DNA of 6,481 bases, taken from the NCBI GenBank assembly GCA_012032855.1, contig JAAUQA010000197.1:1-6481 (forward strand), written 5' to 3'. Shown in pieces: positions 1 to 6,481 of this stretch (position 1 is the first letter of the stretch; every line of letters starts with the position of its first letter). The notes under the pieces were generated by a model that was not told the origin of the DNA, searched no databases, and saw nothing but the letters and a program-made list of their open reading frames with translations. The translations under genes and the position numbers were made by a program. Source of the stretch: Candidatus Competibacteraceae bacterium. Lineage in GTDB: Bacteria; Pseudomonadota; Gammaproteobacteria; Competibacterales; Competibacteraceae.

Positions 1-1
1 C

Positions 2-161
2 ATACAAGTCGATTACGGCATAGCGCCCGACCTTGGCTAAGCAGGTGTTTCGGCTACCGACGGCTGAGGAATTGGCGCAACCGTGCGATACGTTGAATCC
101 CTTTCAAGCCACGTTTCCTAAACGCGACGTGGTCACTATGCCGATGGGACCCACGGGATGA
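2..161 (+). CDS. C-terminal end of an unidentified gene coupled to the DUF6036 nucleotidyltransferase (partial, one frameshift)
   Basis: The window opens inside a reading frame that starts at base 2 and reads IQVDYGIAPDL. It then hits TAA at 38-40. Moving one frame at the TT at 33-34 (one T too many) gives an open continuation, PDLAKQVFRL and onward, ending in TFPKRDVVTMPMGPTG with TGA at 159-161. That stop overlaps the ATG at 158 as ATGA, the spacing of a translationally coupled partner. I do not recognise the family. Position directly before a nucleotidyltransferase suggests it is the cognate partner (for example an antitoxin or DNA-binding regulator), but this is inference from order only. 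The start and most of the protein lie outside the window. Sequence-like composition on both sides of the shift supports a real gene; identity is unknown. Confidence 0.5.
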
Positions 162-775
162 CACCCGGCGCGTCGCCGCCTTGGGATACCCCTTATCTGC
201 GGGCTGTGCTTCGCTTGTTTGAACGGATCGGCGCGGTGCTACCCGCCACGTTACCGGAACCGGTACGGGCTGTTTTGGTGGGTGGAGCAGCCGTGCATGT
301 CCTTACCAGAACGCGGGTGTCAAATGATGTAGAAGCCATTTTCTCCCAGCGGCTATTGCTACCACAGGACTTGGTCATCCGCTATACCGATGAGGGCGAT
401 GTTTCCCGGCAGGTGGTCTACGATTACAACTATTTTTCCGAGATCGCATTGATGCACCCCGATTTTGAGCAGGACGCCGTAGTGTTGGGTCCCGTGTCCG
501 GTCACCCGTTGGTGTTGGCCGTCCTCTCACCCGTTGATCTCGCTGTCAGCAAGCTGGCGCGTTTTCAGGATCAGGATCGGCAGGACATCGCGGCCTTGGC
601 CAGCCGGAAACTGCTGTCGGGGCCGGCCTTAGAACAGCGGGCCACCGAGGCATTGGCGTATTATGTCGGGGACACCCGGTGGATTCAGTATAACCTTAAC
701 GACGCGGTGAACCTGATCAATGTGCTTAATCCAACCTCAGTTCATGGACCCATCCCTGGTGCTCCGCAGCCCTGA
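158..775 (+). CDS. DUF6036-type nucleotidyltransferase, putative toxin of a toxin-antitoxin pair
   Basis: This intact 205-residue protein has the hallmarks of a minimal nucleotidyltransferase related to the AbiEii/MNT toxins. It has a VGGAAVHVLT motif at residues 41-50 (the conserved GG that holds the nucleotide), followed by SNDVEAI at 55-61, where D57 and E59 form the metal-binding acidic pair. A downstream SPVDLAVSKLARF stretch (124-136) and DRQDIAAL (140-147) match the Lys/Asp region typical of DUF6036 proteins, as does the EALAYYVGDT segment near 164-173. Family members are thought to transfer nucleotides to a cellular target such as tRNA; the reaction here is inferred. The ATG at 158 overlaps the upstream gene's stop, and the next gene starts 12 bases after the stop, so it sits in an operon. 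The protein is cytoplasmic, with no signal peptide or membrane segment. Family assignment is fairly sure; toxin activity is not shown. Confidence 0.75.
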   Translation: MTPGASPPWDTPYLRAVLRLFERIGAVLPATLPEPVRAVLVGGAAVHVLTRTRVSNDVEAIFSQRLLLPQDLVIRYTDEGDVSRQVVYDYNYFSEIALMHPDFEQDAVVLGPVSGHPLVLAVLSPVDLAVSKLARFQDQDRQDIAALASRKLLSGPALEQRATEALAYYVGDTRWIQYNLNDAVNLINVLNPTSVHGPIPGAPQP

Positions 776-778
776 TAC

Positions 779-783
779 GAGGT
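779..783 (+). promoter_or_regulatory. Ribosome binding site deciding the start at 788
   Basis: GAGGT lies five bases before ATG 788. An in-frame GTG at 782 overlaps this motif and has no Shine-Dalgarno of its own, so ATG 788 is the better start. Confidence 0.55.
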
Positions 784-787
784 GGTT

Positions 788-1087
788 ATGGATTCTGCAA
801 CACGGCATTTGTTAAGGCGGCTTGCCCAGCAATACGTCTGGTGGAAATCACCAGACGATGCCTTACGCCAGCCGGAAAGAGTAATCGCACAGGTCATGAA
901 CATGGGTGACTATGACGATGTGTTGGCGCTGGTCGATCAAGTCGGAGAGGATGAACTGCGGCAGGTGCTAACCCATGCTGAAATCGGTCAATTCAATGAA
1001 CGTTCGTGGGCGTACTGGCATTATCGGTTGGGTCTCACGCAACCGGACGAGGCTATACCCCCATTGCCAGAACGGCGCCTTGAATGA
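788..1087 (+). CDS. Small putative antitoxin paired with the AbiEii-family gene
   Basis: This 99-residue soluble protein has no frameshift. It carries a WWKSPDDAL motif near residues 18-26, then RVIAQVMNMGDYDDV, a leucine-rich helix ending in DELRQVL, and FNERSWAYWHYRLGL toward the C-terminus. The pattern of Trp, then RVI, then GD and DV resembles the short DUF6922-like proteins that precede nucleotidyltransferase toxins; I make that link from memory of the pattern and hold it loosely. The stop TGA (1085-1087) overlaps the ATG at 1084 of the following AbiEii-like gene as ATGA. This is the classic antitoxin-before-toxin arrangement with translational coupling. In AbiE systems the first gene usually represses the operon, but no winged-helix domain is visible here and the protein is much shorter than AbiEi, so a different mode of neutralisation is likely. 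Gene reality is near certain; the antitoxin role is inferred from position. Confidence 0.65.
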   Translation: MDSATRHLLRRLAQQYVWWKSPDDALRQPERVIAQVMNMGDYDDVLALVDQVGEDELRQVLTHAEIGQFNERSWAYWHYRLGLTQPDEAIPPLPERRLE

Positions 1088-1790
1088 ATCAAACCTTCCA
1101 AACCCATTTGGAGATATTGCCGGAACCGCAACAGTGGCTTTGGCCTTCATTGCGACCCATTACGCAATTAGGCTTTGTACTTTACGGTGGCACGGCAATC
1201 GCGTTGCGGCTGGGACATCGATCATCCGTAGATTTTGATTTTTCACCGATCAACCTCTGAATAAGCGTGCCATCCGAACTGCTTGCCCTTGTCTTGCAAT
1301 AGCTGATGTTTTGCAAGATCAGCCTGACACACTTACGGTCAAGGTTCCCTATGCCAATAACGCCAACCATTCAGTCAAGGTTTCGTTGTTCGGTGCAATT
1401 AGCTTTGGCCGCGTTGGCACGCCGGACCTAACTCAAGACCATGTATTGCAGGTCGCTTCAATGGATGACCTCATGGCAACCAAGCTCAAAGTGTTACTCC
1501 AGCGTGTCGAAGCCAAGGATTACCAGGACATTGCGGCCTTGATCAGAGCCGGAGTCAGTCTTGAAATTGGGCTTGCGGCGACCCGCACAATGTTTGGCCA
1601 CAGCTTTCAGCCAAGCGAATGCCTTAAAGCATTGGTTTATTTTAAAGGGGGTGATCTGGATTCGCTTGCACATAAGGACAAAGAAACCCTGATTAGGGCC
1701 GCCGGTGACGTGCGAGAATTACCGATATTAAAGGTTATTTCGCGCGATCTTTCTAATCGCCCAACTTTAGGCAATTTTCCTAGTCCGTGA
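1084..1790 (+). pseudogene. AbiEii/AbiGii-family nucleotidyltransferase toxin, interrupted by one frameshift
   Basis: From ATG 1084 the frame runs through YGGTAIALRLGHRSSVDFDF (residues 34-53), the signature of AbiEii toxins: GG plus the acidic D50/D52 pair that binds metal and NTP. It then stops at TGA 1258-1260. The T run at 1239-1243 appears one T short. With one T restored the chain continues FTDQPLNKRAIRT and on without a stop to TGA 1788-1790, giving about 235 residues. The second conserved block, MDDLMATKLKVLLQR (from about residue 127) followed by EAKDYQDIAAL (K145, D146, D149), lies in the downstream frame, and its Lys/Asp residues are those the family uses in catalysis. AbiEii toxins are NTP transferases that arrest growth, and some abort phage infection. 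Read literally, the gene gives a 58-residue stub and a headless C-terminal part. The intact motifs on both sides suggest a very recent loss or a sequencing error. Confidence 0.85.
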
Positions 1791-1811
1791 CTGAACGCCC
1801 GCTCATCCTGT

Positions 1812-2204
1812 ATGTGTCTAAATACTGAGCTGGAGCACTTGCTGGAAATGGTATGCCATAACGAAGCAGTGGCATCATACCGCGATTTCGAGGAACTGCT
1901 GTTTCCCGTAGCGCAGGCATTGCTTAGTGGCTGGCAACCCGATCTATCGGCTTTCCAGGGTCTTGCCCGCCAGCGTGCGGGGTACCTGGTTGACCTGCTG
2001 GCCGGCTGGATGCCGGAGGCCCAGGCACGGGCTTGGCGACCCGTCTTGGATCGGCTGGCCGCGGACTCAACGGATCGCACGTCCGGCCCGTTCTTTAATG
2101 GTGATCCGGCATGTGGACCTTGCGAGGATGAGGTGGCCCGGCTGTGGGGGTTGACGCGCGGGCTTAATGTGGCCCGCTTGCGGCAGGGGTTGGCGGGGGA
2201 TTGA
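1812..2204 (+). CDS. Hypothetical protein of about 130 residues, start uncertain
   Basis: I do not recognise this family. The frame is open from ATG 1812 to TGA 2202-2204 and is rich in Leu, Ala and Arg, with predicted helices (for example YRDFEELLFPVAQALLSGW and RAGYLVDLLAGWM) and a CGPC pair near the C-terminus (GDPACGPCEDEV) that might bind metal or form a disulfide. No Shine-Dalgarno precedes ATG 1812. An alternative start is GTG 1787, which overlaps the AbiEii stop as GTGA and reads MTERPLILYVSKY before a TGA at 1826-1828. Dropping one base there joins it in frame as YVSKY-ELEHLLEM, which looks natural and would give about 138 residues. It is the last member of the left block, 21 bases (or a 4-base overlap) after the AbiEii gene, with no visible terminator behind it. 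No membrane segment is visible and its function is unknown. Confidence 0.55.
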   Translation: MCLNTELEHLLEMVCHNEAVASYRDFEELLFPVAQALLSGWQPDLSAFQGLARQRAGYLVDLLAGWMPEAQARAWRPVLDRLAADSTDRTSGPFFNGDPACGPCEDEVARLWGLTRGLNVARLRQGLAGD

Positions 2205-2264
2205 GGGAATTGGTTTGAGTTTATTGAATACCCTGTCAGGAAAATATGGATTAGTCTTATTATC

Positions 2265-2276
2265 AGCGCGCGTGCT
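2265..2276. promoter_or_regulatory. Imperfect palindrome, possible VapB operator
   Basis: AGCGCGCGTGCT matches its own reverse complement at 10 of 12 positions and sits just downstream of the TATTAT box and upstream of the vapB ribosome binding site. VapBC operons are usually repressed by the VapB-VapC complex at such short palindromes. One short GC-rich palindrome can arise by chance, so this is tentative. Confidence 0.2.
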
Positions 2277-2289
2277 TTATGCCCTCGTC

Positions 2290-2295
2290 AAGGAG
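2290..2295 (+). promoter_or_regulatory. Strong Shine-Dalgarno for vapB, start at 2303
   Basis: AAGGAG ends seven bases before ATG 2303. An in-frame ATG at 2279 lies upstream of this motif and has no ribosome binding site, so it is not the start. Confidence 0.75.
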
Positions 2296-2302
2296 ACTAC
2301 CG

Positions 2303-2533
2303 ATGACCCTAGCTGAAACTATTTACACCCATAGTCTTAAATTACCAGAACCGGCAGCCCTTGAAGTCTTGGCATTCATTCAAGACTTGGAGAAACGTTA
2401 CGGCGTCGGACCAGCCTCTGACGATACTGAAGCATTTCTAGCGGCGGTAGCAGGAACCCTAGGCGATGATTTTCCCGATGACATCTCCGAAATCGATTTG
2501 GGCAAGGATGTTCTTCGCGAGACGCTGGACTGA
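2303..2533 (+). CDS. VapB-like antitoxin (DUF2281-type)
   Basis: This 76-residue protein starts at ATG 2303, chosen for the AAGGAG behind it. The N-terminal half, AETIYTHSLKLPEPAALEVL and then AFIQDLEKRYG, matches the DUF2281 pattern (a short helix, LPE, then a helix ending in a charged LEK segment). This family recurs as the antitoxin of PIN-domain toxins. The C-terminal half is strongly acidic (DDTEAF, DDFPDDISEIDLGKDV), as expected of a flexible tail that wraps the toxin and blocks its active site. The stop TGA overlaps the ATG of the PIN toxin (TGATG at 2531-2535), so the two are co-translated in the antitoxin-first order. It should neutralise VapC and probably co-repress the operon. No frameshift is present. 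Antitoxin role is very likely from family pattern and partner; symbol left empty because vapB is a loose label for several unrelated folds. Confidence 0.8.
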   Translation: MTLAETIYTHSLKLPEPAALEVLAFIQDLEKRYGVGPASDDTEAFLAAVAGTLGDDFPDDISEIDLGKDVLRETLD

Positions 2534-2931
2534 TGCCTTATCTGTTGGATACCAACACCGTCATCGCGCTATTGAAAAATAACGCCGGCGTGATCGCGCA
2601 GATTCGCCGGGTAGGGCGGAATCAACTGCGATTGTGTACGCCGGTCGAGGCGGAATTGTGGTTCGGTGTCTATCACAGCAGCAACCTGGAGGCTAACCGG
2701 CAACGCCTGTTAAAACTGCTGTCCTGGTTGCCTAGCCTGCCGTTATCCAGCGAGGCCGCTCTGCTTTGCGGTGAAATTCGTGCAACTCTGGCCCGCCAAG
2801 GCAAACCAATTGGTCCCTACGACTTGCAAATCGCTGCCATCGCTCGCGCATATGGACTGGTGGTTGTCACTCATAACACCCGCGAATTTACTCGGGTGCC
2901 TGACCTTCTGCTCGAAGATTGGCTAGTGTAA
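2533..2931 (+). CDS. vapC: PIN-domain ribonuclease toxin, VapC family
   Basis: This intact 132-residue protein is of normal VapC length. It begins MPYLLDTNTVIALL, with D6 the first catalytic aspartate of the PIN fold. The second acidic residue is E41 in EAELWFGV, the third is D97 in GPYDLQIAA, and VTHNTREF (112-119) supplies the conserved Thr/Asn segment before the closing helix, ending DLLLEDWLV. These residues coordinate Mg2+ for RNA cleavage; known VapC toxins cut initiator tRNA, other tRNAs or the sarcin-ricin loop, but the target here cannot be read from sequence. It overlaps the antitoxin by one base at the start, and its TAA (2929-2931) overlaps the ATG of the Type IIL restriction gene as TAATG. 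That makes a toxin-antitoxin pair the leader of a restriction operon. The protein is cytoplasmic. Assignment is secure. Confidence 0.93.
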   Translation: MPYLLDTNTVIALLKNNAGVIAQIRRVGRNQLRLCTPVEAELWFGVYHSSNLEANRQRLLKLLSWLPSLPLSSEAALLCGEIRATLARQGKPIGPYDLQIAAIARAYGLVVVTHNTREFTRVPDLLLEDWLV

Positions 2932-5825
2932 TGGACATCCGCAGAGGCTTCGAACCGATCACCCCACAAACCTTCATCACAAAATGGCAAGCGGCCAACC
3001 TCAAGGAACGATCCGCCGCGCAGGAACATTTCATTGATTTGTGCCGGCTGCTGGGCGAGCCTACACCTGCCGAGGCCGACCCGCGGGGTGTTTGGTACGC
3101 CTTCGAGAAGGGAGCAAAGAAGACCGGTGGCGGTGATGGCTGGGCGGATGTTTGGAAACGCCATTGCTTCGCATGGGAATACAAGGGCAAGCATCGGGAT
3201 TTGCAGGCCGCCTTGAAGCAACTCCAGCAATACGCGCTGGCATTGGAGAATCCGCCTTTGTTGATCGTTTGCGATCTGGAAACGATCATTATCCATACCC
3301 ACTTCACCAACACTATTCATCAAATCCACACCCTGCCGTTGGAGGCATTGGCCGATCCTCAGCGGTTACGCTTATTGAAATGGGCGTTCAGCGAACCCGA
3401 CCGGTTACGCCCGGAACGCACCACGGAAGTGGTGACAGCCGAGGCCGCTGAGAAATTCGCTACGCTCGCGCAACGCTTGCGTCAGCGGGGATTTGCCCCG
3501 CAACGCGTGGCGCATTTCGTGACTAAGCTACTGTTTTGCATGTTTGCCGAAGATATTGGGGTGTTGCCACGGGACCTGTTTACCCGCTTGCTCGCCGCCA
3601 ATTTGCAGCGCCCCGAGCAGTTTGCGCCGATGGCTCAAGGCTTATTCAGCGCCATGGTGCAGGGCGGTATTTTTCGGTGTGGAACGTATTGCTTGGTTTA
3701 ACGGTGGTTTGTTCGCCGATGATGAGGTCATTGCGTTAGAGGCAGAGGAGATTAGTATCGCTCATCAAGCCGCGCTGCTGGATTGGAGCAACATCGAACC
3801 GGCCATTTTCGGTTCTTTGTTCGAACGGGTCTCGACCCTGATAAACGCAGTCAACTTGGCGCGCACTATACCGATAAGGGTTCCATTTTGCGCTTGATCG
3901 ATCCGGTCATTCGTGAGCCTCTGTTAGCCGAGTGGCAAGCTGTTAAGGTGCGTATCGAGCAGGCTTTGGCAAAAGCCAGAGGCGTTCGGACCAAAGCGCA
4001 GCGGACAGCGGAAGCCGCGTTGCAAACCTTTCTGGAGCGGTTGCACACATTCCGCGTGTTGGACCCCGCGTGCGGTTCGGGCAATTTTCTGTATGTCGCC
4101 CTGCAAACTCTCAAGGATTTGGAGCATCAAGTCATGCTCGAAGCGGAACAACTGGGCCTGCAACGCAGCTTTCCGGCGGTGGGACCGGAAGCGGTGCTGG
4201 GTATCGAAATCAATCCTTACGCGGCAGAACTGGCGAGGGTCACGGTCTGGATCGGCGAAATCCAGTGGATGCTGGGGCATGGTTATAACCTGAGCGATCA
4301 GCCGGTGTTGAAACCCTTGGACCAAATCGCTTGCCGGGATGCGCTGTTGAACCCGGATGGCAGCGAGGCCGATTGGCCGGCAGCTGATGTTATTGTCGGT
4401 AATCCGCCGTTTTTGGGCGACAAGAAGATGATTTCTGTGTTGGGACAAGAGTACACCAGCACGTTGCGTCATGTTTTTGAGGGACGTGTACCGGGTGGTG
4501 CTGATCTCGTGACCTATTGGTTTGAAAAGGCCCGTGCTCTCATTGAAGCAAATCAAGCTAAACGGGTGGGTTTGGTAGCTACGAACTCGATTCGCCAGAA
4601 ACGCAACCGACAGGTTCTTGAGCGGATTCGTCAAACAGGGCACATTTTCCACGCGTGTCCGATCAGGAATGGGTCAATGAAGGCGCGGCGGTGCGCGTGT
4701 CACTTGTTTGCTTTGGCGGACACGATCATGGTCAACCCGTGATCCTAGACGGTCAATCGAGCGGTGAGATTTATCCGAACCTGACGGGCGCGTGTGAGAA
4801 TGATGGCGATCTCGATCTGACCCAAGCCCAAACCTTGTCCGAGAATGTTGGATACTCGTTTTTCGGTTTGTGTTTAGCGGGGTCGTTTGCGGTGGATAGC
4901 GACACGGCCCGCTGGTGGTTATGTCAGCCAAATCCCCATGGACAGCCCAACAGCGAAGTGCTGCGCCCGATCTGGAATGGCGTCGTATATTACCAAGGGC
5001 TGGAAGGGGCGTTGGGTTATCGACTTCGGAACTCATTTGACTGAAGCTGAAGCGGAGTTATTCGAAGCTCCCTTTTCTCATGTGCTAGAGCAAGTGAAGC
5101 CTGTACGGATGAGTAACCGAGAAATATCACGGGTTAAATACTGGTGGCGGCATGGCCGCCCTCGGCCTGAATTGCGGGCAAAATTAACAAGTTTGTCGCG
5201 TTACATTGCAACACCAGAAACCGCCAAACATCGGTTTTTTGTTTGGTTACCTGTAAGTGTAGCGCCAGAGCATAAGCTAGCAGTCATCGTCCGTGATGAC
5301 GACGAAACTTTCGGTATCCTCTCTTCCCATTTCCATGTGGTTTGGGCATTAGCATCAGGCGGCAGATTGGGGGTAGGCAATGATCCGGTTTACAACACAA
5401 CACGCTGCTTTGAAACCTTCCCCTTCCCGGAAGGCTTGACGCCAAGCATACCCGCCAGCGATTACGCCAACGATCCCCATGCTCAAGCGATTGCCGAAGC
5501 CGCGCGGCGCTTGAACGAGTTCGCGCAACAATTGGTTGAATCCACCGGAATGGGTCGAAGTGCGTGCCGGAAGTTGTGCCCCGGTTACCCGGATCGCCTC
5601 CTGCCAGTGGATGATCAAGCCGCCGTACTGCTTAAAAAACGCACGTTGACCAACTTATATAATGAACGCCCGGCGTGGCTGGCCAATGCTCATCGTGAGC
5701 TGGATACTGCCGTAGCGGCTGCCTATGGCTGGCCTACTGATATAGCGGATGATGACATATTGGGGCGGTTGCTGGCGTTGAACCTGGATAGATCGAAGGG
5801 CAGTGCAGTGTTGAAGGCGGACTAA
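2931..5825 (+). pseudogene. MmeI-like Type IIL restriction-modification enzyme (fused endonuclease and adenine methyltransferase), seven single-base frameshifts
   Basis: Corrected length is about 963 residues, near MmeI (about 920). The N-terminal nuclease reads D73 in GWADVW, then E83 and K85 in FAWEYKG, a D-X9-EXK spacing matching the MmeI active site. A helical linker with KLLFCMFAEDIGVLP and, after correction, FNGGLFADDE follows. Methyltransferase motifs are GAHYTD (from 3858), LDPACGSGNFL (from 4059) and GNPPF (from 4398, NPPF at 4401), an N6-adenine gamma-class order. A target recognition domain comes next (about 4650-5400), then a C-terminal RTLTNLYNERPAWL block (from about 5641). Type IIL enzymes methylate one strand for protection and cut about 20 bases away. 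Shifts: +T at 3670-3674, -G at 3827-3829, -G at 4656-4657, +T at 4986, then +T at 5532-5533, +G at 5569-5570 and +C at 5579-5582, which cancel. The raw open pieces are 2931-3701, part of 3544-3897, 3783-4742, 4655-5044 and 4887-5825. Every catalytic motif survives in some piece. Start ATG 2931 overlaps the vapC stop. Confidence 0.9.
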
Positions 5826-5827
5826 CA

Positions 5828-6481
5828 ATGACCGACCCAAACCCTTTCCAGCCCATCTTCGCAGCGATCATCCAACCGCTGCTCTGGGTTTTTCCGGCGC
5901 TCTTCACGCTGGCGGGCCTCAAGTTGCTGTTCTCCGCTTGGTTCAAAGGGATGGCCGGAGAACGAGCAGTAGCCCGAGTACTGGATCGCCTGGGCCAAGA
6001 CGCTCTGCAAGACGTCATCATCCTCGATGGCCAGGGCGGACTCACGCAACTCGATCATGTGGTCCTAATCCCGGTTGGTCTGCTCGTGGTTGAAACCAAG
6101 AACTACCAAGGGCAACATCTTCGGTCAACCGAAGGATAAAACCTGGACCCAGCGCGTTGGCAGAAAGAGCTTTAAGTTCGGCAATCCGCTGCGACAGAAC
6201 TACTTGCATACGCAGGCGGTGAAAGCCCTCGTGCCAGGGGTTCCTGTATACGGTCAGGTAGCTTTTACTAACGTGGCACGCTTTCCGAAAGGCGTCCCCG
6301 AGGGGGTTTCAGCACTAAAGACACTCAAAGCCGACCTTGGTCCTTTGTTGCAGGCAGATACCGTGGACCCAGTGGACCTCAACGGGGCCTGGCAACAACT
6401 GCAAGCCACAGCCCGCACAGATCGGGAAACCCGCCAAGCGCATATTGCCGGCATTCAGGCCAAACATGGGAAGGATTACCG
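5828..6481 (+). pseudogene. Membrane-anchored NERD-domain protein (nuclease-related), frameshifted and cut by the window end
   Basis: ATG 5828 lies two bases after the restriction gene's TAA, with AAGG about ten bases upstream, so it is the next gene of that operon. Residues 11-36 form a hydrophobic segment (AAIIQPLLWVFPALFTLAGL), likely a single membrane anchor. The NERD domain follows: KGMAGERAV with E45, LTQLDHVVL with D76, and LVVETKNYQG with E89 and K91, the acidic and Lys residues of a PD-(D/E)XK-like nuclease fold. The frame then ends at TAA 6137-6139. Removing one G from the run at 6110-6112 restores YQGNIFGQPKDKTWTQ, the expected NERD continuation, and the chain stays open to the last base (ADTVDPVDLNGAWQQLQA and on). 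The C-terminus, where many NERD proteins carry a zinc ribbon, helicase or kinase domain, lies outside. Nuclease activity is inferred from the fold; the substrate is unknown. Confidence 0.85.

Follow-up and report, generated by a model that had tools for sequence, protein, structure and literature searches.

Ten frame changes interrupt the genes in the 6,481-nt stretch of Competibacteraceae DNA analysed here (the window), and by far the best explanation for them, one that we hold with high confidence, is that they are sequencing or consensus errors of the record. Such errors would lie in the reads or in the consensus and would probably stem from an indel-prone technology, e.g., long reads that were not fully polished. 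The cell itself would then carry open, functional versions of the AbiEii-like, MmeI-like, NERD and left-edge genes. The original prediction, made from the letters of the window alone, had likewise taken the frame changes for sequencing error and not for old pseudogenes, and it is supported by the identity of one broken gene to an intact protein (P0121), the retention of 178 of 179 invariant residues in another, the lack of stops, and a density of breaks near long-read rates.

The finding is an ordinary one, in that a problem of record quality hides genes of known kinds. Automatic annotation of the record would list fragments and would miss the MmeI-like enzyme, the AbiEii-like gene and the NERD protein; a working defence island could also be counted as dead. 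The case is a quality warning.

Results and Discussion

Gene content of the window

All predicted genes of the window lie on the forward strand (Table 1) and form a Competibacteraceae-like mosaic in which defence genes are mixed with toxin-antitoxin genes. Among the best relatives of its longest gene, many are labelled Competibacteraceae, Contendobacter or Competibacter, and the longest DNA match found to the window has about 70% identity. In a mechanical list of open reading frames, the broken genes appear as fragments only.

Table 1. Predicted genes of the window, with the frame changes assigned to them
Feature	Positions	Strand	Remarks
3' end of ORF, family unknown	1..157	+	Frame change ~20-32, weakest of ten
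DUF6036 nucleotidyltransferase-like protein, intact	158..775	+	Pfam PF19502, E 2.1e-12
DUF6922-like small protein, intact	782..1087	+	PF21956, E 0.0067, under curated cut-off
AbiEii-like nucleotidyltransferase	1084..1790	+	PF08843 on both pieces, above cut-off; frame change 1238-1243
ORF, family unknown, intact	1812..2204	+	In L126, homologue adjoins DUF6036 homologue
Antitoxin-like DUF2281 protein, intact	2279..2533	+	PF10047, E 0.00019, under curated cut-off
VapC PIN-domain toxin, intact	2533..2931	+	PF01850, E 2.6e-14; NF047863, E 2.5e-35, under its cut-off
MmeI-like type IIL restriction-modification gene	2931..5825	+	Four Pfam MmeI domains; seven frame changes
NERD-domain protein, leaves window	5828..6481	+	PF08378 on both pieces; frame change 6107-6116

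The longest gene resembles MmeI (PDB 5hr4), which is matched by the window piece 3783-4739 (E 6.5e-21) and with which it shares the MmeI_N, MmeI_hel, MmeI_Mtase and MmeI_TRD domains, present in that order and above the Pfam cut-off. Unlike MmeI, it is broken seven times, and its match to MmeI_C (E 0.0062) falls under the cut-off of that domain. The AbiEii-like gene has PF08843 on both halves, as do AbiEii-type nucleotidyltransferase toxins, and a toxin role is predicted for it from this likeness; it differs from those toxins in its one frame break and in its upstream partner, which is DUF6922-like by a match under the curated cut-off. That the DUF6922-like protein is the partner of the AbiEii-like gene is likely.

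Frame changes in the MmeI-like gene

Frame changes were located with a purpose-written, frame-aware DNA-to-protein aligner, with which the MmeI-like gene was compared with half (60) of its 120 listed homologues. Every one of the 60 calls for seven or more frame changes: exactly seven against 56, eight against two (P0029 and P0058), and nine against two (P0033 and P0034). The seven places are 3669-3675, 3826-3829, 4656-4657, 4982-4988, 5520-5523, 5557-5563 and 5579-5582, and an event was called at most 12 bases from them in 59, 60, 60, 59, 60, 59 and 60 of the 60 alignments, respectively. None of the 60 alignments contains an in-frame stop, and none was found in the homologue alignments of the broken AbiEii-like and NERD genes, in agreement with the earlier statement that no stop had arisen by substitution.

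Of the ten frame changes originally listed, nine are firm and the one at the left edge is weak; two had been placed about 6-12 bases too far 3'. The break put at 5532-5533 belongs at 5520-5523 (forcing it to 5532 costs a mean of 9.7 half-bits), and that put at 5569-5570 belongs at 5557-5563 (forcing 5569 costs a mean of 14.0 half-bits). That each change involves a single base is the cheapest reading, with the qualification that +1 and -2 are sometimes indistinguishable; a two-base event occurs in 9 of the 60 MmeI alignments, several of these being an alternative writing of the same change. As it stands in the record, the MmeI-like gene is not a single open reading frame, interrupted as it is by seven frame changes, and we judge this to be an artefact of the record.

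Frame changes in the other genes

The frame change in the NERD gene was called by all three homologues compared, one of which (L125) adds a -2 near 5890. For the left-edge ORF, alignment at the standard penalty gave a single +1 at 20-32 in four of six homologues (L135, L136, L137 and L144), at a score gain of 2-7, and alignment to the other two (L138 and L139) is confined to the downstream part. In those same four loci, IQVDYG or VQVDYG, read in frame 2, and FRLPT..., read in frame 3, match one protein; a Pfam match to the L135 protein was not found.

Frame changes were absent from the DUF6036 gene against the one homologue compared (L126), from the DUF6922-like gene against L127, L128 and L129, and from the DUF2281 gene against L132, L122, L108 and L103; the VapC gene had none against L132, L122 and L103, and one isolated +1 against L108. 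A possible eleventh shift, near 1826, had also been proposed, but it is not needed because the ORF at 1812..2204 can begin, with its frame unchanged, at an ATG of its own (1812). Only two alignments cover this ORF, and they start at about 1830 (L126) and 1944 (L131).

An intact copy of the AbiEii-like gene

An intact version of the AbiEii-like protein exists in public data as P0121, which is 235 aa long and is represented by two member sequences and a single 1977-bp contig (source 'lgn'). All 234 aligned codons of the window gene are identical to it, and a single frame change separates the two. L127 agrees with P0121 on this change, L128 puts an equivalent change elsewhere, and L129 aligns downstream only. 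P0121 is the strongest evidence that the breaks are errors.

The AbiEii-like and MmeI-like genes were both searched for such copies, and a near-identical intact copy was found at one of the ten break sites, that of the AbiEii-like gene. Two protein searches, which scored only candidates sharing most words, returned no near-identical MmeI-like protein, the best having 72% identity among the best 120 listed. Near-identical DNA was found neither among the candidates scored in 39 genomes of the family, nor, for window 1084-2204, among those scored in 40 genomes of the order, nor in phages. Plasmids yielded three short pieces, of 74-83% identity, to window 2500-6481 and no match to the left-edge ORF, and exact patterns had 0 matches in viral contigs.

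In a mixed case, most of the breaks would be errors, but a single one or a few of those outside the AbiEii-like gene would be true mutations carried by the strain that was sampled. The lack of a near-identical intact copy for nine of the ten sites is what such a mixture could draw on; distant homologues are the basis for six of the seven sites in the MmeI-like gene and for the remaining ones. Nothing that we saw, however, sets any single site apart, and substitution-type lesions were not found in the broken genes, so that we regard the mixture as unlikely. For the other nine sites we infer that they, too, are errors.

Constraint in the MmeI-like gene

The coding sequence of the MmeI-like gene is unrelaxed. 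Leaving out codons at most four steps from a frame change, 178 of the 179 columns that are invariant in the 60 homologues are kept, a violation rate of 0.56%; homologues left out singly violate a mean of 0.68% and a maximum of 4.3% of such columns, and the window ranks 20 of 61. The stretches D-x9-E-x-K, DPACGSGNFLY and NPPF, which we take to be the nuclease and methyltransferase catalytic motifs, are present, and their residues are retained, as had been predicted of the catalytic residues. Lineage-specific differences at codon positions 1 and 2 per difference at position 3 amount to 1.067 in the window and 1.062 in its closest intact homologue, counts being summed over overlapping homologue pairs and therefore non-independent. 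A comparison with close homologues had been proposed as a check on the error reading, and the window's ratio falls inside the range of the 13 intact ones (0.715-1.178), being the second highest of 14. The relaxed constraint by which a pseudogene would be recognized was thus not found in this gene.

If the genes were nonetheless real, recent pseudogenes, the island would have lost its use and single-base indels would have accumulated before substitutions in an indel-rich strain, e.g., a mismatch-repair mutator. Spectra with few substitutions per indel do occur: a study of Mycobacterium smegmatis, a species that lacks mismatch repair, gives 856 substitutions against 207 small indels (PMC4938668). 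Set against this are the figures given in a study of a Pseudomonas fluorescens mutator, in which small indels are 6.77% of mutations, and about 10% in Escherichia coli (PMC4316635). On the assumption that, in every gene, breaks and substitutions built up during one and the same period, ten substitutions per indel would lead us to expect 8.3 amino-acid changes in the AbiEii-like gene, where 0 were seen (P = 0.00025), and 2.5 stops in the AbiEii-like, MmeI-like and NERD genes together, where 0 were seen (P = 0.082). With 3 substitutions per indel, an AbiEii-like gene free of amino-acid changes has a probability of 0.083, and with 5 one of 0.016, so that recent decay becomes less likely without becoming negligible; against a mutator very rich in indels the evidence is weaker, P still being 0.083 at 3 substitutions per indel. 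With the invariant MmeI columns kept, in-frame stops lacking in the broken genes, and an intact identical protein existing elsewhere for the AbiEii-like gene, we consider recent pseudogenes quite improbable. Equally hard to credit, if anything a shade more so, is a population that was silencing its defence island through a burst of single-base indels outpacing substitutions while its close relatives remained intact.

Homologous loci as a control

As a control, 80 loci homologous to the MmeI-like gene, the top-ranking ones among 219 relatives, were aligned in the same manner. Counts refer to the 78 loci with at least 600 aligned residues (L001 and L013 fall below and have 0 events each), references being every second one of the 120 listed homologues, excluding those at least 95% identical to the tested locus, and the event count of a locus being the median of its five best alignments. 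The median was 0 in 74 loci, one in two and two in two, in a sample that was chosen via peptide patterns of an unbroken part of the gene and so leans to intact loci, with strongly broken relatives perhaps under-represented.

The four loci with a median above 0 are L014, L021, L034 and L055. In L021, two events inside a variable loop cancel each other; the event of L034 lies in a gap-rich stretch; that of L055 has Ns beside it; and that of L014 is the clearest of the four. For L044 and L065 the median is 0, although the best alignment of each contains one event, and L013, L014 and L072 have one in-frame stop each. The L055 event has the same frame effect as a window break and lies about 10 codons away from it, and none of the window's breaks is shared by these four loci. 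Relatives sharing the same shifts, which had been named beforehand as an observation that would speak against sequencing error, are therefore absent among the homologous loci examined.

Some type IIG enzymes in other bacteria are phase-variable via simple repeats, and this precedent is the reason to consider that the restriction enzyme and its neighbours might be switched by phase variation or read through programmed frameshifts. The runs at the breaks, however, are at most five bases long in the window, seven breaks in one gene cannot form one switch, and 74 of the 78 homologous loci are without a break. A regulated change of frame is accordingly the least credible of the alternatives and can be given hardly any weight.

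Spectrum, spacing and density of the breaks

The breaks had been described as lying mostly in homopolymers. When the placement freedom of each break is allowed for, runs of at least four bases (insertions) or at least three (deletions) occur at four of the ten sites, where random placement gives a mean of 1.78 (P = 0.075), and the excess is not significant; P is 0.071 with a stricter cut and 0.56-0.93 with looser ones. Homopolymer enrichment is the usual mark of errors of this kind. A naive count on the positions first assigned had given P = 0.005 and was dropped after placement testing.

Insertions outnumber deletions among the breaks by 7 to 3. A Pseudomonas deficient in mismatch repair shows an insertion bias too, and simple repeats hold 97.73% of its small indels (PMC4316635); because of this shared bias the indel spectrum alone is not decisive.

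Spacing is uneven. On the positions first assigned, the short intact genes, which cover 1971 bases, contain 0 breaks (P = 0.025 if breaks were uniform), and three breaks are crowded into a span of about 50 bases (P = 0.019). Points that tell against error are this unevenness, the finding of a near-identical intact copy at no more than 1 of 10 sites, the homopolymer value of P 0.075 and the second-highest codon-position ratio.

An enhanced biological phosphorus removal (EBPR) bioreactor is a habitat of Competibacteraceae. The breaks of the window, 10 in 6384 coding bases, have a density of about 1.6 per kb, and long-read metagenome contigs from such a bioreactor likewise show about 1-2 frame changes per kb where homologues are intact (Arumugam et al. 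2019, PMC6469205), although the window's sequencing technology may differ from theirs. The values given there for MinION contigs are 1.2 per kb (SD 1.6) after short-read polishing and 6 when unpolished (PMC6469205). Neither the homopolymer argument nor the earlier naming of 454, Ion Torrent or long reads as the platform finds support in these data, the homopolymer mark not being significant. Frame-shifts were also corrected in a related long-read study of activated sludge enrichments (PMC7966762). The density of the window is near that of the short-read-polished MinION contigs and below that of the unpolished ones.

Results

In L126, a locus homologous to genes of the window, the counterparts of the DUF6036 gene and of the open reading frame of unknown family at 1812-2204 adjoin each other, whereas in the window (158-2204) a DUF6922-like/AbiEii-like pair lies between them; judged by this arrangement, it looks as if the pair had been inserted there. 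The order within the pair also varies: the DUF6922-like gene precedes the AbiEii-like gene in the window (782-1790), opposite to the homologous locus L127, in which the AbiEii-like gene comes first.

Matches in L126 to two window genes
Window gene	Position in L126	Strand
DUF6036 gene	1979-1437	minus
ORF 1812-2204	1404-1039	minus

The MmeI-like gene was matched on more than one contig in several Competibacteraceae genomes (e.g., G002, G003, G004, G005, G008 and G039), and the family is therefore probably multi-copy in those genomes. One locus homologous to this gene, L014, carries frame changes of its own plus an in-frame stop, and is possibly a true pseudogene or else another contig bearing errors.
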